From contig JAOZHO010000050.1 in assembly GCA_026014875.1 (NCBI GenBank), forward strand, positions 100,090 to 143,957: 43,868 nt of DNA, written 5' to 3'. Origin of the DNA: Candidatus Bathyarchaeota archaeon. Lineage in GTDB: Archaea > Thermoproteota > Bathyarchaeia > TCS64. A program made the translations under genes and the position numbers. This document shows, one piece after another, positions 15,349 to 40,999 of this stretch. Positions within the stretch are counted from its first letter, which is position 1. Each line of letters begins with the position of its first letter. The notes beneath the pieces were generated by a model. It worked only from the letters and a program-made list of their open reading frames with translations, was not told the DNA's origin and did not search any database.

Positions 15349-15383
15349 TTTCTTTGAGGCGGCGGTTGATATGAGCTGTAGCA

Positions 15384-15402
15384 TAGGATAAGGGTTCCCG
15401 GG
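15384..15402 (+). repeat. Dispersed 19-bp repeat, copy A
   Basis: TAGGATAAGGGTTCCCGGG occurs here and, identically, at 34910-34928. In both places it lies just upstream of the promoter of a minus-strand housekeeping gene and 60-150 bp before an 11-bp repeat array in the same orientation. Confidence 0.8.
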
Positions 15403-15536
15403 CTAGGGGGTGGGTCTCTGGTGTGGTGGGTGTTGCTGCACTTTTTTTGTTTTTGTGGGGGTGTCTGTTTAGGGTTGTTTTTTGGGTTGTTTTGTTGTTT
15501 GGCGGGTTTTTCTGGTTTGTTTTGGTGTTGGTTTGG

Positions 15537-15640
15537 TACTGTTTTGCTACTGAATAGCTACTGTTTTGCTTGGGGGGTTGGTGGGGGGTTGTTTCCGGGT
15601 GTTTTTCGGGTTCCTTCCGGTGTTTGGCTGTGTTTGCAGG
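15537..15640 (+). repeat. G/T-rich dispersed repeat with 11-bp units, copy 1
   Basis: Begins with three 11-bp units, TACTGTTTTGC, TACTGAATAGC, TACTGTTTTGC (15537-15569), then GGGTTGGTGGGGG and TGTTTTTCGGGTTCCTT. About 100 bp is similar to 20098-20210; the unit array is also related to 34970-35024. The surrounding 15.42-15.64 kb is almost devoid of C and A on the plus strand and contains no credible gene. It marks the left edge of the accessory block that starts with the transglutaminase gene's 3' end. Confidence 0.8.
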
Positions 15641-15804: not shown

Positions 15805-18300
15805 CTATGGCTTCATTATTATGCGATGTAATCCCAGGATTAAAGCCCCGGCAAGGATGCCGATCATTACCGATATGGGGGGGAAGCCGGGTATTCCTTT
15901 CTGTTCAGGCTCTGATTCAATGATCCTGAAAGATGCGGTCTCACTGGTAGAGTCTCTATATGTTGAGTCGCCTTGCCGGGACGCAATGACGCTCCATGAT
16001 CCTGTCTCAGTCGAAATATGCGATTCCGAGTAGGAGCCATTTGAATCGGTGGAAACGGTTCTTATGGACGTTGAGCCATCTGGCTTCGTAAAAGCTATGG
16101 CTACATCAGCTCCTGAGATCGCGGGGAATATTGACCCCGAAACTGTAACCGAGTCTCCTTCAGTGAGTTGAGATTCAGAAGTCTGGATCGATATGCTTGA
16201 GGGTATTTTTGTTACCGTGAAATGAACGACAGGGCTGGTTGATCCTTCAAACCCTCTATCGCCCTCCCAACTTGTATTTACTTTCCACGAGCCAATAACA
16301 TGTGGAGTGAATGAAAAGTAAAATGAACCATCGGACTCTGTGTTGACGGATCTCGTGGCAGTCTCTCCGTCTGGTTTGATAAATGATAAAATAACGTTCT
16401 TATCAGGGCATGATGGGGTTATGAATCCTTGTATACTGATATTGTTGGCCATTATAATTTCAGATGGTAAAACACTGCATGAGATATCGGTTATCGACTT
16501 TTTAATTGAAAAATTATACAGGTACTGTTGGACCTCTATCCCCCCGTCATTTGTTTGATACTTGATAGATGCTTCAACAGATGCATTGCCTAAAGAGTGC
16601 GCTCTCATGAATAAGTTAAGCTCATGTACTTCATATCCGTGCAGTTTTCCGAGCGAGTGGATAGACTCATTGAGGAGCATTAACCCATCAGGTGCACTGA
16701 TAGTAACGTTAGTCGAATATGCGGTGCCGTTGCCATTATTCCGAATTATCAGCTTTAATTTTACGTCTTTGTCAAAAGAGGTCTCATTTTCGTAGCTAGC
16801 GGAGACTGAAACATCAGGTATGAAAATCCCTAAAGTCTCCAGTAGGCTGACGTCATACTTCATATCGTAACTAAATTGCTCGTAAACTTGCCATTGGACT
16901 TGTTCGACTTCAGACGAATCCCTTTTAATTAACTCCGAAATATGTCGTCCATCTAGAATACCAAAAAGTTTCCATGTCGGATCAACAGGTAGCCATCCAT
17001 ACTCGGGAATAAAGACCTCCGTCCATCCGTGAGCATTATCTGTCTGGTTAAACTGCCCATCGTTTTTGTAGACGAAACCACTTACTACGAGAGCAGGTAT
17101 CCCTGAAGCTCTACATAAGGAAACGAAAAGATCGGAGTAATCTGAACATACGCCTTTCCTCAGATTATAAGTCGTAATTGCCCCGTATCTTCCGGTCTCT
17201 TCCCCGCTAAGGATCTTTTCGTATTTATCATAATCGTACTCAATATTGTCGGCAACGAAATCATATATCGCCTTTACTTTATTGATGACGCCTATTTTTC
17301 CTTCCGTAAGGTTCTTAGAGAGGCTGTTAATCGTCGGATTATCTACCTCCCAATACTCATCTGCTGTCGTATATTGTAGTAAATTCGAAGGTAGCTTGTC
17401 CAATTGTACACTGTATGATTCATTATAATCCGGTGAGAGCCTAATTTTTATGAGAGCATGCATGGTTATCGTTGTTTGCTCGCCCGAATCAATAGGTCCT
17501 ATAACGAACGTATATCTGGGATTTCCAGACTCGTCATGGGATATGGAAAAAGGGGGAGGTATGCAGTCTATCTGTAGGACTTCCTGAAATTCCCCTTCTA
17601 AGGGACCAGGTACTGTAAATTCACCTAATTTCTCGGTTTTAGAGCCTTCATTAGTAAAAGTGTATTTGTAGGTGACATTATAATGTACAACTGTGTCCGC
17701 TAACTTTACATTTAGATAGTATTGTTCCTCTGCACTAACTCCGAGCATTTGCCCAGACAGTATAGTGCTATCCGCGCTCTCTCTCATGCTAAGAAAGGAT
17801 GGTTCGTACTTTACTAGACCATAACTTTGCGGGATATTAACCGTTAGTGTTACGTTTTCCTTGTAAACATCGTCCGTTACCGTCCATATCCCTAGGGATT
17901 TTTCTGAACCCGTTATCGTTATCCTATCATCGGCATAGAAATTTACTTTTAGGAGATAGGTTTGATTAGCATATACTTTTCTACCTAAATCGATGGTAAG
18001 CAGAGTCCAATTACCTTCGACAGCTTTATTAAAATTTAGAGGACCGTACTCATTCTCGACTGATATTTGTTGAGTGTCTGCCGTGTGAATGTACATGGAC
18101 CAAGTGTCGAAATAATACCTCTCCTCTATCAAAGGAGTAAAAATATAATTTAATTGAACTTTTACTGATAGGTCATCACGTATTGTAACTGTCTCATCAT
18201 AAAGTAATATCTTGTAGTTTTCAGATGAAGAATTTACGGGATAAGGGGTAGCGAGGACAGTGAAAAATATGAGTAGACAGAATAGGCGCATTTTTTTCAA
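15805..18300 (-). CDS. Secreted, membrane-anchored transglutaminase-like protein with CARDB and Ig-like repeats
   Basis: 831 residues. A signal peptide (KKMRLFCLLIFFTVLATP) leads to a large extracellular part. Near 370-445 is a transglutaminase core: GVCSDYSDLFVSLCRASGIPA (catalytic Cys), NAHGWTEVFIPEYGW (His) and LPVDPTWKLFG (Asp), a complete triad. A CARDB-like domain follows (LIIRNNGNGTAYSTNV), then two ~85-residue Ig-like repeats, each with KPDG followed by TxSDGS/TDSNGS and a GSW strand. The end is GIPGFPPISVMIGILAGALIL and a short basic tail, a probable surface anchor. Such proteins act as cysteine peptidases or cross-linkers at the cell surface. Composition is much more AT-rich than the chromosome, implying acquisition. 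Confidence 0.88.
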   Translation of the reverse strand: MKKMRLFCLLIFFTVLATPYPVNSSSENYKILLYDETVTIRDDLSVKVQLNYIFTPLIEERYYFDTWSMYIHTADTQQISVENEYGPLNFNKAVEGNWTLLTIDLGRKVYANQTYLLKVNFYADDRITITGSEKSLGIWTVTDDVYKENVTLTVNIPQSYGLVKYEPSFLSMRESADSTILSGQMLGVSAEEQYYLNVKLADTVVHYNVTYKYTFTNEGSKTEKLGEFTVPGPLEGEFQEVLQIDCIPPPFSISHDESGNPRYTFVIGPIDSGEQTTITMHALIKIRLSPDYNESYSVQLDKLPSNLLQYTTADEYWEVDNPTINSLSKNLTEGKIGVINKVKAIYDFVADNIEYDYDKYEKILSGEETGRYGAITTYNLRKGVCSDYSDLFVSLCRASGIPALVVSGFVYKNDGQFNQTDNAHGWTEVFIPEYGWLPVDPTWKLFGILDGRHISELIKRDSSEVEQVQWQVYEQFSYDMKYDVSLLETLGIFIPDVSVSASYENETSFDKDVKLKLIIRNNGNGTAYSTNVTISAPDGLMLLNESIHSLGKLHGYEVHELNLFMRAHSLGNASVEASIKYQTNDGGIEVQQYLYNFSIKKSITDISCSVLPSEIIMANNISIQGFITPSCPDKNVILSFIKPDGETATRSVNTESDGSFYFSFTPHVIGSWKVNTSWEGDRGFEGSTSPVVHFTVTKIPSSISIQTSESQLTEGDSVTVSGSIFPAISGADVAIAFTKPDGSTSIRTVSTDSNGSYSESHISTETGSWSVIASRQGDSTYRDSTSETASFRIIESEPEQKGIPGFPPISVMIGILAGALILGLHRIIMKP

Positions 18301-18562: not shown

Positions 18563-19285
18563 ATGTCTCAAGGAGTATCTAAAAATTACCTAATAGCATC
18601 TCTAATCACGGTCCTCATCCTTTCACTGATATTAAACTACAGCATTTTAACCACATTCATAAAAACGGGTCCTGAAGGTGAAACCGGGGATATGGGACCT
18701 CAGGGAGAAATGGGGTTAATAGGATCCACCGGGGAAACAGGAGAGCGGGGCTTGATTGGCCCAGTAGGACCAGAGGGGTCGAAAGGCGACAAAGGGGATA
18801 GAGGCCCAACGGGATCCATCGACGGAGAGGATCTTGAACTTGTCGATTTTGTTGCGAGGCTGGATGACCTAGATTTTCGCATGGGTAAATCGGAAGCCTA
18901 TCGAATTTTAAAAAGGACATTGACATTATCTAAGCCAGAGTCGTACCTCATTGAATCTGTAATAAATGAACTATTTGACGAACTCAAAATAACATATCCG
19001 CTCATAGAGAATTTTGAGGTTAAAATTAAACAATTATTATCCGACGTTCTTAATGCAGGAAACCCGTCCCTTTCATGGTATAGCGAGTCTTGCGAACAGA
19101 TTAATTCAAACACTTATCTAACAATTGTAAAAACTTATTTTTCTTTAGAGGTCGATACAGGCGTTCCAGTTATTGGTGAAATTGTCGTTGCTAGGATTGC
19201 CCTCACTGTAACGGGAAATGTGGATGTCTCTAGGAACATAGTAATTGAAAACTCAATTGGTGTTGTATCTGTAGTGATAGAGTAA
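18563..19285 (+). CDS. Membrane-anchored collagen-like protein
   Basis: 240 residues. A single N-terminal transmembrane helix (about 10-31, [17 protein letters not shown]) anchors a collagen-like stretch of roughly 17 Gly-X-Y triplets (about 36-88: [17 protein letters not shown] ... [13 protein letters not shown]), rich in Glu and Lys in X/Y positions as in bacterial and viral collagen-like proteins, where charge pairs stabilise the triple helix without hydroxyproline. A C-terminal globular domain of ~150 residues follows and is not recognised. It may trimerise as a surface stalk. ATG 18563 has GGTGA 6-7 nt upstream. AT-rich composition matches the transglutaminase gene opposite. Confidence 0.85.
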
Positions 19286-34883: not shown

Positions 34884-34909
34884 CTGGGTGTGGGGGCGTG
34901 CGCCTGGCT

Positions 34910-34928
34910 TAGGATAAGGGTTCCCGGG
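34910..34928 (+). repeat. Dispersed 19-bp repeat, copy B
   Basis: TAGGATAAGGGTTCCCGGG, identical to 15384-15402. As there, it lies between a minus-strand housekeeping promoter and an 11-bp repeat array. Confidence 0.8.
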
Positions 34929-34969
34929 TTAAACCGTTTATTTGGGTATTTGGCTTGGGGTTGTTTTGG

Positions 34970-35024
34970 TACTGAATTGCTGCTGAATAGCGATTGAATA
35001 GCTACTGAATAGCCCTTGAATTGC
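34970..35024 (+). repeat. Array of five 11-bp direct repeats
   Basis: Five contiguous 11-mers: TACTGAATTGC, TGCTGAATAGC, GATTGAATAGC, TACTGAATAGC, CCTTGAATTGC. Consensus TACTGAATAGC, the same as the central unit of the copies at 15537 and 20109. The 11-bp spacing puts each unit on the same face of the helix. There are no spacers, so it is not a CRISPR array. It marks the left edge of the AT-rich PIN/helicase block. Confidence 0.85.
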
Positions 35025-35168
35025 ATTTGTGATGAGAGGAAGGTCAGAGTGGGACTTCTATGGATGCTGTTAGTGGTGTAATATTACAGATCGTGGGGAG
35101 GATCAGCATGGTGGTGCTCCTCACGAAACTCGAAGTGAAAATGAAACGCTCGTCCTTTCAATGAATGC

Positions 35169-36188
35169 CTACTGAGCATGTAATTGCATTCTAAGCCGAT
35201 TGTTACCCCAGTCCATGATATCTTTTCCCGACCACATACCTTCAATAAGTAGATCATGATCATCCCATAAACCAACCACTCGAATTTTGTCGAACGTTAT
35301 GGCAGTCTCTCTGATAATCTCTGGAAAATTAGTAACTTCGAACTCAGTTTTTTCGGGATTTGCTGGACAAAAATAGAATGCATCAATGTCCTCGGCGCTG
35401 GCTGTACTCGCCATTAAAAGGTCTCTTGTAATCAGAATCATAGATTTGAACCTTTTTCGATGGTCCCACATTTCAGTCCTGATTAAACTATCAATAATGC
35501 CGCTCCCTGCGAGTTGAGAAAATTGAGCTTGTAAATCTGCTCTAACTGGATTTGGGAAAGGTAACGCATCAAAATTTAATCTAAGTCTACGAATTTCATT
35601 GAATGCCGAAAACACAAGTCTTTTTTCCTCTTTATTTCTTTCCACCTTATCTTGAAATCGTCTAGCCTTTGCTTCTAACTCAAGAATCACAAACCTAGGT
35701 ATTCTAATTGGATATTCTCCTCGCAAACGTGGTAAAATTACCTCATTTAAATAATGTTCAATGATAATGCATGTATCAGGCACAATAATGCTGTCTTCAA
35801 CCCAACTTGAAAACCAATCATCAAAAGTACGAAAAGTTCCCGTTTTAAACGTTTGATCTATATTCGAATATTTGACGCCTAATTGCTCATATTTGTCAGA
35901 TTGCTGAGATGCCATTGATGGGTAATACTCGCATCTATATGGAACTCGAGCTCCTGCACGATCTAAAGAAGCCAGCATTTTGTTTTTTTCAGGGCTTTCT
36001 TGGATTCTAATATTGCCCTCCCCCATGAAAAAATCACTCTTAAATAATCTATTTTCTCCATGAAAACACGTGATCTCTTGACGTCTCAATTCAGGTGGTG
36101 GTATGCCATCGAATAGTCTTCGTATATTGTTTCTCGCCCGGATTCTAAGAAACTCCTCAAATGAAATTGTATTAATAGGGTGAGCCAT
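35169..36188 (-). CDS. PIN-domain protein, probable ribonuclease, with a novel N-terminal domain
   Basis: 339 residues. The C-terminal part reads as a PIN nuclease with all four acidic positions: IIVPDTCIII (D138), RIPRFVILELEAKA (E170/E172), GIIDSLIRTE (D233) and SMILITRDLLMA (D256). PIN domains are Mg-dependent RNases found in VapC toxins, RNA decay factors and some defence proteins. The N-terminal ~125 residues (FEEFLRIRARNNIRRLFDG, RVPYRCEYYPSMAS) are not recognised; the protein is far longer than VapC (~130), and no antitoxin gene is adjacent. ATG 36188 is chosen by homology-like sense and position. It is divergent from the helicase-nuclease gene with a shared upstream region. Confidence 0.75.
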   Translation of the reverse strand: MAHPINTISFEEFLRIRARNNIRRLFDGIPPPELRRQEITCFHGENRLFKSDFFMGEGNIRIQESPEKNKMLASLDRAGARVPYRCEYYPSMASQQSDKYEQLGVKYSNIDQTFKTGTFRTFDDWFSSWVEDSIIVPDTCIIIEHYLNEVILPRLRGEYPIRIPRFVILELEAKARRFQDKVERNKEEKRLVFSAFNEIRRLRLNFDALPFPNPVRADLQAQFSQLAGSGIIDSLIRTEMWDHRKRFKSMILITRDLLMASTASAEDIDAFYFCPANPEKTEFEVTNFPEIIRETAITFDKIRVVGLWDDHDLLIEGMWSGKDIMDWGNNRLRMQLHAQ

Positions 36189-36247
36189 CGTGACCTGAAA
36201 AGTAAATCGTCATGTAAATAATATACTTTGGTTAAAATTGTCGAATA

Positions 36248-36454
36248 ATGCATTCGCGCGCTGGGCTTATTGTGCAGGTGAACAATATTCTGCATGGGTT
36301 CACGGGGGTCGCGAGGCTCGCTGGGGAGGTGGGAATGCTCTGGGTGCTGTTTGTGGTGGATTATTACATGTTCGTGAGGGGGAACAGCGCGGTGAGCATC
36401 TACATGGAGTGCTTGGATCTTAAAAGAAACAAGTTGAGAACTCCTGAAATGTGA
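36248..36454 (+). CDS. Short GC-rich open frame, possible gene fragment
   Basis: 68 codons inside the AT-rich island, yet about 36285-36420 is GC-rich with G/T-ending codons like the chromosome. The protein is sensible: ILHGFTGVARLAGEVGML followed by a hydrophobic helix WVLFVVDYYMFV. I do not recognise it. It may be a piece of a chromosomal gene carried into the divergent promoter region, or a small membrane protein of the system. The end (KRNKLRTPEM) runs into AT-rich sequence and looks accidental, favouring a fragment. Confidence 0.35.
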   Translation: MHSRAGLIVQVNNILHGFTGVARLAGEVGMLWVLFVVDYYMFVRGNSAVSIYMECLDLKRNKLRTPEM

Positions 36455-36523
36455 TTTTCCAGATTTTATTCGTTCATAAAGAGTAAAAAAAATTGTTGTA
36501 AAAGGATATCCTGAGAAATTTTA

Positions 36524-36534
36524 AACTTTAAATA
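36524..36534 (+). promoter_or_regulatory. Probable TATA box for the helicase gene
   Basis: TTTAAATAATT about 25-30 nt before the ATG at 36559, suggesting a leaderless transcript. The surroundings are AT-rich, so other placements are possible. Confidence 0.4.
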
Positions 36535-36558
36535 ATTTTAATTTCTTTTATATTTAAC

Positions 36559-39282
36559 ATGGATATTTCAGATTTAGTTTCCTATAATATTCCTGAAACA
36601 ATCGTATCTGACCTTGAAAAGCGAGGATATAAAAAACTAACCAGAATTCAAGAGAGTGCATTAAAAACTGGAATGTTTGACGGTCGAAGCTTAGTGATTA
36701 GCGCACCAACAAATACTGGAAAAACTTTCATCGCTGAATTAGTAATAATAAATGCCGCAATTTATCGATCAGTATCTAAAACATTCTATTTACTACCTCT
36801 TAAAGCTCTAGCTGAAGAAAAGTTTCATGATTTCAACGAAAAATATTCAGAATGGGGCCTTCAAATTGCGATATCGACAGGAGATAGATCTAAATATGAT
36901 GGAGAACTAGAGAATTTTGATGTAATCATTGCTACCTATGAAAAATTATTAACATTGCTCATTAGAAATCCCAGATTAATTAATCAAATTGGGGTGGTCA
37001 TAATTGATGAAATACAAAATATTGGAGATTCCCATAGGGGAGTTAATGTTGAATTATTGTTATCTATGTTAATCACAGAAGGGATCGAAGATTTACAAAT
37101 AATAGCTCTATCCGCAACAACACCGAATGCTAGCGAACTTGCTGATTGGTTAAAAGCAGACTTGGTTACATCAGATTTTAGAGAAATAGAATTGCGAGAA
37201 GGGATAGCCTATATAGGAGATGCAGATGTATCATTTCAAAACTACGAAATTAAAAATGGTGATTTCGTTTTTCAAGAACACAATAGTAAACAAATAAATG
37301 TCGAAAAGCAGTTCGATGTAAATTCATTTAATTTTATTATACCATTATCTAACGACGAACAAATTATTACGTTTGAACCTACAAGAAACGACGCTGAAAG
37401 ACTTGCTCAAAGATTATCAGCAAATATGGAAAACGCAGAGAATGACGCCTATCTTGTCGAAATGGAATTGACGACTGAACCTACTCCAACGTCAGTTAGA
37501 TTATCCCGGTGTGTACGAAACGGTGTTGGCTTTCATCATGCTGGATTGCTAGCAAATGAAAAATCAATAGTTGAGAATGCTTTCTCTCAAGGAGATATTC
37601 GAATTATATGTGCCACAACAACTCTTGCCGCTGGAGTAAATACCCCCGCTAAAAATGTCATCATGAGATCACACCAATTTTGGGGGGGTGATTTACCTCT
37701 TACTAGCTACAAAAATATGGCTGGTCGTGCTGGCCGTATTTTTCAACATGATGATTTTGGTAGGTCTATATTATTTGCGCATAACGAAAAAGAACTCCAT
37801 TATTTGTGGAATAAATATATTATAGCTACAGTTGCACCTGTAGAATCACAAATACCAAGTTATGGAGATATTGGATTACCCCTTTTGATAATACTATCTT
37901 TTTTTGAATGTAAAGAAATAAGTGAAATATTAGATGTGATTGAAAATACCTTTTTTGGGTATACCTATTCTGGTAAAGATGATGTAATAAGAAGAGCGTT
38001 TGAAGAAGGTATAAGGAAAGAACTGCTTAGATTGAATGATGGTAATTTTATAGAATTATTGGATGATGTTGTAACTATCACTGAATTGGGACGGTGTTGT
38101 GTGAATGAATTGATTTCCCCCATGACTGCCCGTTTATTAGTTGAAGGGTTCACAACGTTACAAGATAATATTGAAGACTATGGTGATTTAGATGAGTCAA
38201 TTATACATTTGGTATGTAATACCTATGATGCAATAAGATCAAATTCTTTATTATATATCAGAAATCATAGAGATGTTTTAAAATATGCAAGAGTAAATTC
38301 TGATAAATACCTAGTAACGATAAATGATCAAAATTTATTCTTAAGGTCCGTATTTACGACTCAATTAGTATTAGATTGGATAGCAGGAACTCCATATAAT
38401 GAGCTTAGGAGGTATGGCCTACCTTCAGGACAAATAAAAAGTAGAACTGAACGAATTTCGTGGATACTAAGAGGAGCAACTGCATTAGCAAAATGTACTT
38501 TCTTTTCATTTGATGATAATTTTCTTAATTTTCTTGATAATTTGACCGAGCAAGTTCTATTTGGCGTTCCTGTTGATGTACTAAACTTAGTTCGTCTCAA
38601 TCTCCCGGTCGTTCATCGGACAAGGGCAATAAGTTTGTATGATGCTGGATTACCGGACATTGACAGTCTCATTAATGTGTCATTAGATGACTTGATAAAA
38701 ATCGATGGTATCGGTAATCGAGTAGCAACTAGAATTAAATCTGATATTGAATCCTATATCTTGAGTGAAAGTGATAGAAGATATCAATCCCAGGTTAGGG
38801 AAGCAAAAGAGGTAGGATTGGATGTTTCTTTAATTGAGAGATTATATCATGAACAAGGTGACGATTTTGTAAAAATATTCATTGAAATATTGGTGGATCA
38901 TTTTAAACTACCCGCTAGTTATGTAGGTGATTCTCGCCCACATGATGTTGACGGAATAATTACTCTTGATAAGGGAATTATTGTAATAGAAGGCAAAAGA
39001 CAGAAGAATGATAAAGTGGGGCCCGTAAAAGCTGAAGAAGTATGGGGTAAAGGAAAAAAATATGATCCAATTGCTTATGTAACGATAGGATATCCTGATT
39101 TTTCTACAGGTTCAATAAATAATGTTCATAATACAAAGATTACTCTATTACCTCATTATATAATTGGAAAAATGTTATTAGATTTTTATCAAGGGCGGAT
39201 CTCTCAAGATGATGTTCTAGGTATGATGATGAGTGGCACATATTTGGGTTATAGAAAAATCACAAAACAGACAATCACTTGA
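36559..39282 (+). CDS. Ski2/Hel308-like SF2 helicase fused to a C-terminal PD-(D/E)XK-like nuclease domain
   Basis: 907 residues. All helicase motifs are intact: Q region TRIQESAL (28-35), Walker A APTNTGKT (49-56), LPLKALA (79-85), motif II DEIQ (150-153), SATT (185-188), GFHHAGLL (324-331), TTTLAAGVNTPA (353-364) and NMAGRAGR (386-393), characteristic of the Ski2/Hel308 group. A winged-helix/ratchet part follows, then helix-hairpin-helix sequence (about 680-735, IDGIGNRVATRIKSDIE). Beyond this, where Hel308 ends, an extra ~150 residues include HDVDG (D798) and IVIEGKR (E811-x-K813), the D...ExK pattern of restriction-endonuclease-like nucleases. ATP-driven DNA or RNA unwinding coupled to cleavage is inferred. 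Hachiman-type HamB helicases are the closest known defence analogue. Confidence 0.85.
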   Translation: MDISDLVSYNIPETIVSDLEKRGYKKLTRIQESALKTGMFDGRSLVISAPTNTGKTFIAELVIINAAIYRSVSKTFYLLPLKALAEEKFHDFNEKYSEWGLQIAISTGDRSKYDGELENFDVIIATYEKLLTLLIRNPRLINQIGVVIIDEIQNIGDSHRGVNVELLLSMLITEGIEDLQIIALSATTPNASELADWLKADLVTSDFREIELREGIAYIGDADVSFQNYEIKNGDFVFQEHNSKQINVEKQFDVNSFNFIIPLSNDEQIITFEPTRNDAERLAQRLSANMENAENDAYLVEMELTTEPTPTSVRLSRCVRNGVGFHHAGLLANEKSIVENAFSQGDIRIICATTTLAAGVNTPAKNVIMRSHQFWGGDLPLTSYKNMAGRAGRIFQHDDFGRSILFAHNEKELHYLWNKYIIATVAPVESQIPSYGDIGLPLLIILSFFECKEISEILDVIENTFFGYTYSGKDDVIRRAFEEGIRKELLRLNDGNFIELLDDVVTITELGRCCVNELISPMTARLLVEGFTTLQDNIEDYGDLDESIIHLVCNTYDAIRSNSLLYIRNHRDVLKYARVNSDKYLVTINDQNLFLRSVFTTQLVLDWIAGTPYNELRRYGLPSGQIKSRTERISWILRGATALAKCTFFSFDDNFLNFLDNLTEQVLFGVPVDVLNLVRLNLPVVHRTRAISLYDAGLPDIDSLINVSLDDLIKIDGIGNRVATRIKSDIESYILSESDRRYQSQVREAKEVGLDVSLIERLYHEQGDDFVKIFIEILVDHFKLPASYVGDSRPHDVDGIITLDKGIIVIEGKRQKNDKVGPVKAEEVWGKGKKYDPIAYVTIGYPDFSTGSINNVHNTKITLLPHYIIGKMLLDFYQGRISQDDVLGMMMSGTYLGYRKITKQTIT

Positions 39283-39625: not shown

Positions 39626-40999
39626 ATGAGTGTCGTTAAGGTCTCTGCAATCCTGCTGATGGTCCTCGTGGCGCAGGGCGTCCACGCGGGTGACACGGGG
39701 AGCGCCGTCCCCTATCTGGAGAGATGGGGGATCTACGAGCTGGACCCTGTTACATCGCAGGTCACGCAGGTACTCACCAGCCCGAAGGAGATCTCGAAGC
39801 TCAGAATCAACTCAGCCGGGGACACCTTCGCCTTCTCGATGGAGGTTGACGGGGACGCCCTCGAGATATGTACCTTCGACATGACGGAAAGAAAATTCAC
39901 CAGGCTCACCGAGAACGGTCACATGGACGTCTACCCGTCGTGGTCCCCCGACGATTCAATGATCGCTTACCTCTCGTGGCCCGGGGACACACTGGACATC
40001 TACGCGATGGACGCCGACGGGGGAAACCAGAGGCTCCTGTATGACTCCGGGTTCCACGATGCGGACCTCCACTGGGCGGGGGACAAGATCGCCTTCACAC
40101 GTAACTCCCAGATCTGGATCATGGAGGAGGACGGAACCGGCGCCACCCGGCTCACGGACCCCCCCAAGGCCGGCGAATGGGGCGACGCGGTCCTCCCCTT
40201 CGGCGACTACGATCCCCGGATAAGCCCCGACGGGGAGAGGATCGTCTTCGAGAGGATGGTGGACGACTCCAGCCCCCACGGCAACTACGATCTGTTCATC
40301 ATCGACTCGGATGGATCCAACGAGAAGCGCCTCACCGATAGTGGCTGGACCCAGGGATTAGCGGTATGGTCCCCTTCCGGTGACAGAATTGTCTACTCCG
40401 TCGCCGCAATGGGCGAGGAAGGAAGATACGACATCTACACGATGAACAGCAACGGATCCCAGATCCAAGACCTGACATCCCAGCATTTCCCCCCGGGTTT
40501 CCTCGCCCATGAGCCCATGTTCTCGGCTGACGGCTCCAAGATATTCTTCATAGGAGAGTGGTGGGACTGGAGAGTCCTCGAAACGGAGATCACATGCTCT
40601 CTTTCATCGTCCGAAGTGGTGCCCGGTGAAGAGGTTAGCGTCAGCGGGGGAATCGAGCCCGCCGTACCGGAGGCGGCAGTCACATTGACCATCGTAGGGC
40701 CAAGTGGTTCGACTATAACGAGGACATTGGACCTCGATTCTGAAGGCGCCTATGCAGAGGTCTTGGAGCCATCCGAGATCGGCCAGTGGGCCGTCAAAGT
40801 TTCGTGGGAGGGAGACCTCGGACATCATGCTTCGGAGAGCCAGACCACGTATTTAGTCGTGGAGGAGCCCCAGGATGGGGGTAGCGGAATTCCAGGCTTT
40901 CCAACCCAGTCAATTATGCTCGGGGTACTAGTGGGAGCACTTCTATATTCCATTACGAAGCGCGTGCATCCTCTGAACTCGTACGCAAAGTCCCCCTAA
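39626..40999 (+). CDS. Secreted TolB-like beta-propeller protein with Ig-like domain and C-terminal anchor
   Basis: 457 residues. A signal peptide (VVKVSAILLMVLVAQGVHA) is followed by a six-bladed TolB/WD40-like propeller (about 30-320) with blade motifs PSWSPDDSMIAYLSW, DIYAMDADGGNQRLL, PRISPDGERIVFER, LFIIDSDGSNEKRLT and VWSPSGDRIVYS. An Ig-like domain comes next (about 325-415; GPSGSTITRTLDLDSEG, GQWAVKVSWEGDLG), then a short linker and GIPGFPTQSIMLGVLVGALL. The Ig module and the anchor closely resemble the end of the transglutaminase protein (15805-18300), so both are probably displayed on the surface by the same route. The propeller likely binds protein or sugar. Confidence 0.85.
   Translation: MSVVKVSAILLMVLVAQGVHAGDTGSAVPYLERWGIYELDPVTSQVTQVLTSPKEISKLRINSAGDTFAFSMEVDGDALEICTFDMTERKFTRLTENGHMDVYPSWSPDDSMIAYLSWPGDTLDIYAMDADGGNQRLLYDSGFHDADLHWAGDKIAFTRNSQIWIMEEDGTGATRLTDPPKAGEWGDAVLPFGDYDPRISPDGERIVFERMVDDSSPHGNYDLFIIDSDGSNEKRLTDSGWTQGLAVWSPSGDRIVYSVAAMGEEGRYDIYTMNSNGSQIQDLTSQHFPPGFLAHEPMFSADGSKIFFIGEWWDWRVLETEITCSLSSSEVVPGEEVSVSGGIEPAVPEAAVTLTIVGPSGSTITRTLDLDSEGAYAEVLEPSEIGQWAVKVSWEGDLGHHASESQTTYLVVEEPQDGGSGIPGFPTQSIMLGVLVGALLYSITKRVHPLNSYAKSP

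Follow-up and report, generated by a model that had tools for sequence, protein, structure and literature searches.

Within a 43,868-nucleotide stretch of the genome of a Candidatus Bathyarchaeota archaeon (contig JAOZHO010000050.1), hereafter the window, lies a gene for a 907-residue protein that joins a Hel308-like helicase to a predicted nuclease of the Mrr type. We consider it reasonably probable from its sequence that this helicase-nuclease is a stand-alone, horizontally acquired, single-chain defence protein, built on a Hel308-like motor independently of the Hna and Hachiman systems. The gene and its parts are as follows.

36559..39282, + strand: helicase-nuclease gene, 907 aa (open reading frame (ORF) list, family profiles, four full-length relatives)
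36559..37818, + strand: two RecA-like helicase domains, residues 1-420, with motifs I-VI and DEIQ in motif II (Pfam, motif inspection)
37819..38619, + strand: Hel308-type accessory region, residues 421-687, including archaeal helicase domain 4 (PF21280, E 3e-7; NCBIfam Hel308 profiles reach residue 705-740)
38620..38748, + strand: helix-hairpin-helix, residues 688-730 (PF14520, E 7e-5 here; E 3.5e-9 and 3e-10 in relatives)
38767..39279, + strand: predicted Mrr-type PD-(D/E)XK nuclease domain, residues 737-907 (profile-profile comparison)
38950-38952, 38989-38991 and 38995-38997, + strand: candidate catalytic residues D798, E811 and K813 (alignment of homologues)

The resemblance of residues 1-740 to Hel308-type helicases is continuous, with E values down to 3e-129 against NCBIfam models and down to 7e-89 against Hel308/Hjm structures in the PDB. 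Matches to NCBIfam Hel308 (E 4e-92), Pfam DEAD (E 5e-28), Helicase_C (E 5e-8) and archaeal helicase domain 4 (E 3e-7) agree with the motifs, all of which were found: I (SAPTNTGKT), II (DEIQ), III (SAT), IVa (FHHAGL) and VI (GRAGR). An earlier reading of the DNA, made from the sequence alone (the sequence-only reading), had listed a full set of Ski2/Hel308 motifs and a helix-hairpin-helix, and both stand; the match to the latter falls slightly under the cut-off in the window protein and well over it in relatives. The NCBIfam equivalog cut-offs were missed by far (309.6 bits versus 1200 for the Hel308 model and 432.5 versus 887 for the best-scoring model). The same genome encodes a separate housekeeping Hel308 of 754 residues, 33% identical, which ends where the extra domain would start, and an ordinary Hel308 lacking that domain is also present in most of the 27 genomes searched in the family. 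Because of these low scores and the ordinary Hel308 in the same genome, the window helicase is best classed as a paralogue of Hel308-like type, distinct from the housekeeping copy.

The sequence-only reading also placed a D798...E811-x-K813 nuclease signature at the C-terminus; this call holds and can be narrowed to the Mrr branch. Across the five full-length helicase-nucleases E811 and K813 do not vary; D798 is aspartate in three and glutamate in the two haloarchaeal ones. When a profile of the five sequences was compared with six archaeal Mrr_cat proteins, hhalign returned a probability of 94% (E 1.1e-7, 134 columns) with D798, E811 and K813 on the catalytic positions, and reversed-profile controls reached at most 0.2%. 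Pfam by itself remained sub-threshold (Mrr_cat E 0.007, 16.9 bits versus a gathering score of 21; NERD E 0.02-0.14), and a PDB search with the nuclease profile gave no significant match. The nuclease domains of the three proteins from the archaeal class and of the haloarchaeal pair, compared blind, proved homologous (hhalign E 4e-9), and the haloarchaeal C-termini have the E-x-K and TIG-x-P-x-F motifs in common with the window protein. By these profiles, the C-terminal domain is assigned to the PD-(D/E)XK nucleases, Mrr branch.

The helicase-nuclease gene stands back to back with a gene for a PIN-domain protein.

35169..36188, - strand: PIN-domain protein, 339 aa, probably just a neighbour of the helicase-nuclease (ORF list, Pfam)
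36189..36558, no strand: divergent intergenic region with an AT-rich, TATA-like stretch about 30 bases 5' of the helicase ATG (sequence)

The position of that TATA-like stretch suggests a leaderless archaeal transcript for the helicase gene. The coordinates of the pair, the 370-bp gap and the AT-rich composition, all pointed out in the sequence-only reading, were confirmed: the guanine-plus-cytosine (GC) content is 38.0% in the PIN gene and 33.8% in the helicase gene, as against 61% in the archaeal glycyl-tRNA synthetase gene (glyS) that flanks the pair on one side and 59% in the TolB-like surface protein gene on the other. At third codon positions the figures are 31% and 22%, versus 80% for glyS. 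A genome of the same genus (G307) has altronate dehydratase, cinA and glyS in the same order and neither island gene; the DUF362 gene that closes this run of genes in the window sits there one gene past glyS. Because of the AT-rich composition and the missing genes in G307, the simplest reading of the island is that it was acquired recently and that the site is variable. RNA families searched across the window returned none.

Relatives of the helicase-nuclease are few and scattered. A domain search of genomes gave one full-length relative (G249; 904 residues, 40% identity), a profile search gave a second of 919 residues (G327), and a tblastn search of plasmids added two from haloarchaea, 933 and 941 residues long; the four thus fall into two from other families of the same class and two from plasmids of Halorarius and Natronosalvus. 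Within the class, 3 of 257 genomes, in three families and including the window genome, carry the gene; the 26 remaining genomes in the family of the window genome lack it, and a sample of 398 genomes from across the phylum added no further match. At four of the five loci the AT content of the gene exceeds that of its flanks. At the G249 locus it stands alone between housekeeping genes on a 1.7-Mb contig. In G327 it belongs to a compact, co-oriented, operon-like run with helix-turn-helix proteins, an HEPN_Swt1 protein whose RxxxxH RNase motif is intact (RNVIAH), and a 502-residue protein lacking a Pfam match; an Orc1/Cdc6-like gene lies further along this small contig. The Halorarius plasmid has a DpdA-like gene and a DNA methylase gene within about 7 kb, and the neighbourhood on the Natronosalvus plasmid includes a type III restriction-modification pair, a restriction endonuclease and a PemK-like toxin gene.

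The two plasmid-borne copies, the Orc1/Cdc6-like gene on the G327 contig, and the DpdA-like and methylase genes near the Halorarius copy would also suit a gene of mobile elements, serving replication, integration or the exclusion of competitors on plasmids or integrated elements. We regard this as quite improbable, since plasmids yielded nuclease-domain matches in three haloarchaeal records only, and neither an integrase, a replication gene nor a tRNA adjoins the window island. Back-translated patterns of the nuclease domain likewise found no relative in genome contigs or viral contigs, in scans that depend on short conserved runs and have little power where domains have diverged. One of the three plasmid records, Salarchaeum pJOR178 (L121/L074), holds an unannotated copy of the nuclease domain across the record origin, 47% identical to that of Halorarius.

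A tree of the helicase parts (657 columns, 23 proteins; the branches of HamB, the Hachiman helicase, and of the haloarchaeal proteins are long and the sampling small) places the class trio as sister to bacterial helicases with an N-terminal caspase-like protease (support 100/98), which have DExQ in motif II in common with the trio. Hel308 is the next group and forms its own clade (100/99), outside which the window helicase falls. The haloarchaeal helicases fall elsewhere, on a different Ski2 branch, and a single clade of all five helicase-nucleases is rejected (approximately unbiased (AU) test, p 0.0014). Because the five helicases do not form one clade and their nucleases are homologous, one type of nuclease was either fused on two occasions or passed on by domain exchange, as far as the sequences tell. 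The bacterial proteins, encoded on plasmids and about 1,000 residues long, carry the protease, its His/Cys dyad intact, ahead of a Ski2-type helicase.

L049:5224-8241: caspase-like protease/helicase
L051:5230-8238: caspase-like protease/helicase
L053:3659-6712: caspase-like protease/helicase
L055:5221-8250: caspase-like protease/helicase

Examples are Bradyrhizobium pNK6d BAR63598.1 and Agrobacterium pusense WP_077987718.1. Nearest to the window helicase in the tree and alike in DExQ, these fusions differ from it in that their effector is the N-terminal protease; they end after the helicase and have no nuclease. They are uncharacterised, lie in variable neighbourhoods and are candidate defence proteins themselves. 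Taking them for Hna was rejected, Hna being DinG/XPD-like. Because the window helicase is sister to these fusions, one helicase chassis appears to carry alternative effectors. A broader proposal, which we put forward tentatively and with rather less than even confidence, is that a Ski2/Hel308-like DNA-surveillance helicase is a new immune chassis shared by archaea and bacteria, fitted with an Mrr-type nuclease in archaea (at least twice, in two branches) or with a caspase-like protease in bacteria. If so, one kind of motor would couple the sensing of DNA structure to DNA destruction or to proteolytic cell death.

From the observed domain make-up, the conserved catalytic residues, the foreign and sporadic nature of the gene and its kinship with fusions that bear other effectors, we infer that a defence role is likely; a DNA substrate, a polarity, a trigger and an autoinhibition can be proposed by inference as well. 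The exchange of effectors is the strongest indirect sign of defence, because conflict systems typically swap effectors on a shared motor. The rare, scattered spread, the foreign composition and the empty site in G307 count in the same direction, as do two plasmid-borne members, that of Natronosalvus near restriction-modification genes, and the HEPN companion in G327. The sequence-only reading had suggested looking for known defence genes in its company; restriction-modification genes lie in the region of the Natronosalvus copy and the HEPN gene beside the G327 copy, and the window and G249 copies have no known defence gene nearby. Of its further idea, an effector nuclease fused to a helicase and directed against invaders, the fusion is borne out by domains and profiles, and the anti-invader role is very plausible from the foreign, sporadic character. 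Both Hel308 and HamB, itself Hel308-like, unwind DNA in the 3'-5' direction, with forks and free 3' ends as their substrates. A Hel308-like 3'-5' motor with a helix-hairpin-helix could thus engage single-stranded ends, forks and recombination intermediates, structures that would be abundant while a virus or plasmid replicates. ATP-driven movement, or a conformational change, might then place the tethered Mrr-type nuclease on the DNA to cut it; the invader would be destroyed, or the host DNA too if the nuclease were unrestrained. Mechanistic precedents exist in Hna (PMC13381803) and Hachiman (PMC12278908).

Several considerations weigh against a defence role. Hel308-type helicases are repair enzymes, and repair fusions of helicase and nuclease, such as Hef, are known. 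Support for the nuclease fold comes from sequence profiles, and the AlphaFold model of the domain, computed from the single sequence with no alignment, was poor and uninformative (pLDDT, predicted local distance difference test, 42). Two of the five members, in the window and in G249, lie among housekeeping genes with no known defence gene, and five full-length members are too small a set for statistics on defence-island association. The protein could instead be an enzyme of DNA repair or recombination with no part in defence, a Hel308 paralogue that acquired a nuclease and, much as archaeal Hef does, would process crossovers or stalled forks, as its place in the Hel308 family and the G249 copy on its long housekeeping contig would allow. 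We think this unlikely: nearly all relatives lack the gene and manage with Hel308 alone, its composition is AT-rich and foreign, some copies are borne by plasmids, and the same helicase branch carries alternative effectors. The single-chain defence protein remains the reading that we prefer.

The PIN gene requires separate consideration, and three further features bear on it.

35376..35786, - strand: PIN domain, residues 135-271, with D138, E170, D233 and D256 (Pfam, alignment with archaeal PIN domains)
35049..35113, + strand: left copy of an imperfect 66-nt direct repeat (79% identity, E 1e-9)
36329..36394, + strand: right copy of the same repeat, between the PIN and helicase genes (79% identity, E 1e-9)

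The protein matches PIN_4 (E 1e-6). The acidic tetrad proposed for it in the sequence-only reading holds for D138, D233 and D256, which align with conserved acids of archaeal PIN domains; of the two residues offered as the second acid, E170 aligns and E172 does not. Residues 1-130, where that reading had seen an unrecognised 125-residue domain, match no family, and AlphaFold run with no alignment was uninformative. A search of genome contigs, viral contigs, plasmids, phages and 300 phylum genomes found no full-length relative; in the phylum genomes the PIN domain alone was matched, in apparent PIN-containing PRK13764-type ATPases. The same reading joined the two genes into one module, and a PIN RNase that cleaves transcripts or tRNA once the helicase is triggered can indeed be imagined, the two being divergent neighbours within one AT-rich island, the tetrad being intact and an HEPN RNase accompanying one other member. 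Such a system is nonetheless very unlikely and finds no support: those searches gave the PIN protein no full-length relative, the other four helicase-nucleases have no recognisable PIN gene beside them, and the PIN gene is separately bracketed by its own direct repeats. Among the five loci the pair thus occurs in the window alone, and a lack of co-occurrence elsewhere is what the sequence-only reading had itself named as a refutation. An RNase-type companion is present at two of the five loci (PIN in the window, HEPN in G327), which is suggestive at best. The PIN gene is probably a mere neighbour of the helicase-nuclease, and could be an independent RNase-type cargo of the same island, possibly auxiliary. 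No VapB-like antitoxin gene was recognised adjoining it; a 68-codon ORF with a hydrophobic stretch (36248-36454, +) is the only one between the PIN and helicase genes and holds the right repeat copy, the left copy being interrupted by a stop.

The window has some other features of its own. The genome has about 42 matches to a dispersed repeat (boxes GCGCCTGGCTTAGGATAAGGGTTCCCGGG and TACTGAATTGCTGCTGAATAGC...); in the window it occurs at 34900-35020, 15381-15405 and 15514-15563, and copies adjoin both AT-rich islands. The second island (about 15.5-20.5 kb, GC about 41%) includes genes for a large surface protein with a transglutaminase-like look (15805-18300, -) and a collagen-like repeat protein (18563-19285, +). 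The former and the surface protein at 39626-40999 (+) have alike C-terminal GIPGFP... hydrophobic tails, which by eye resemble an archaeosortase PGF-type sorting signal.

Among known systems, Hachiman was the one to which the sequence-only reading had linked the locus. Hachiman (HamA/HamB) and AbpAB likewise combine a Ski2-type, Hel308-like sensor helicase with a PD-(D/E)XK-like nuclease (PMC12278908), and Hachiman degrades DNA once its helicase meets damaged or phage-altered DNA (PMC12278908). A Hachiman variant with HamA fused to HamB would also account for the matches of PADLOC HamB profiles to the helicase core. These matches, and those to PDC-M23B, were set aside as unspecific because the housekeeping Hel308 of the same genome scores as high. 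In Hachiman and AbpAB helicase and nuclease are two separate proteins. The C-terminal domain here bears no resemblance to HamA (DUF1837; hhalign probability 1%, and 0.2% against one HamA), and no HamA-like ORF adjoins the gene. A PF08878 (HamA) search of the whole genome was empty, but its control was silent too, so that absence is no more than indicated. Residue 27 already aligns with position 269 of 1104 in the HamB profile; the helicase core thus starts at the N-terminus, and the N-terminal HamA-binding (NAH) region of HamB is missing. In the tree HamB is separate, and a clade of the class trio with three HamB proteins is rejected (AU p 0.0018). Kinship with Hachiman was therefore refuted on the features examined, and membership is extremely improbable. 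A 1,409-residue protein of Nostoc plasmid pn3 (L071:2396-6625), annotated as HamA, appears to join HamA-like and HamB-like parts, that is, a fused Hachiman.

Closer in plan is Hna, a single protein with an N-terminal superfamily 2 (SF2) helicase and a C-terminal PD-(D/E)XK domain, which confers phage resistance by abortive infection and is kept inactive as an ATP-stabilised dimer (PMC13381803). The window protein has the same order in a single chain. Hna, however, is DinG/XPD-like with a reduced Arch domain, 845 residues long, and acts as a single-stranded-DNA exonuclease with activation by SSB, whereas in the window protein the helicase is of the Hel308/Ski2 type throughout and is accompanied by a helix-hairpin-helix and an Mrr-type nuclease. 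With archaeal Hel308 (HELQ/Hjm) it has in common the helicase family grade, domain 4, the helix-hairpin-helix and motif IVa FHHAGL; Hel308 is by contrast a housekeeping protein of about 750 residues with no nuclease and in a separate clade (99-100% support). Mrr-type type IV restriction endonucleases have the catalytic D...ExK in register across 134 columns; no winged-helix targeting domain was recognised in the window protein, in which the helicase would do the targeting. A Hel308-Mrr fusion was not described in the literature searched, a limited selection with few subscription journals. The window protein is thus like Hna in architecture and like Hachiman in its motor, and departs from each in defining features. 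Archaeal antiviral defence is poorly charted, and the bacterial caspase-like sister group suggests one sensor helicase with interchangeable killing domains. If our reading is correct, the helicase-nuclease would be a compact counterpart of Hachiman and Hna, tying a conserved family of DNA-repair helicases to immunity.

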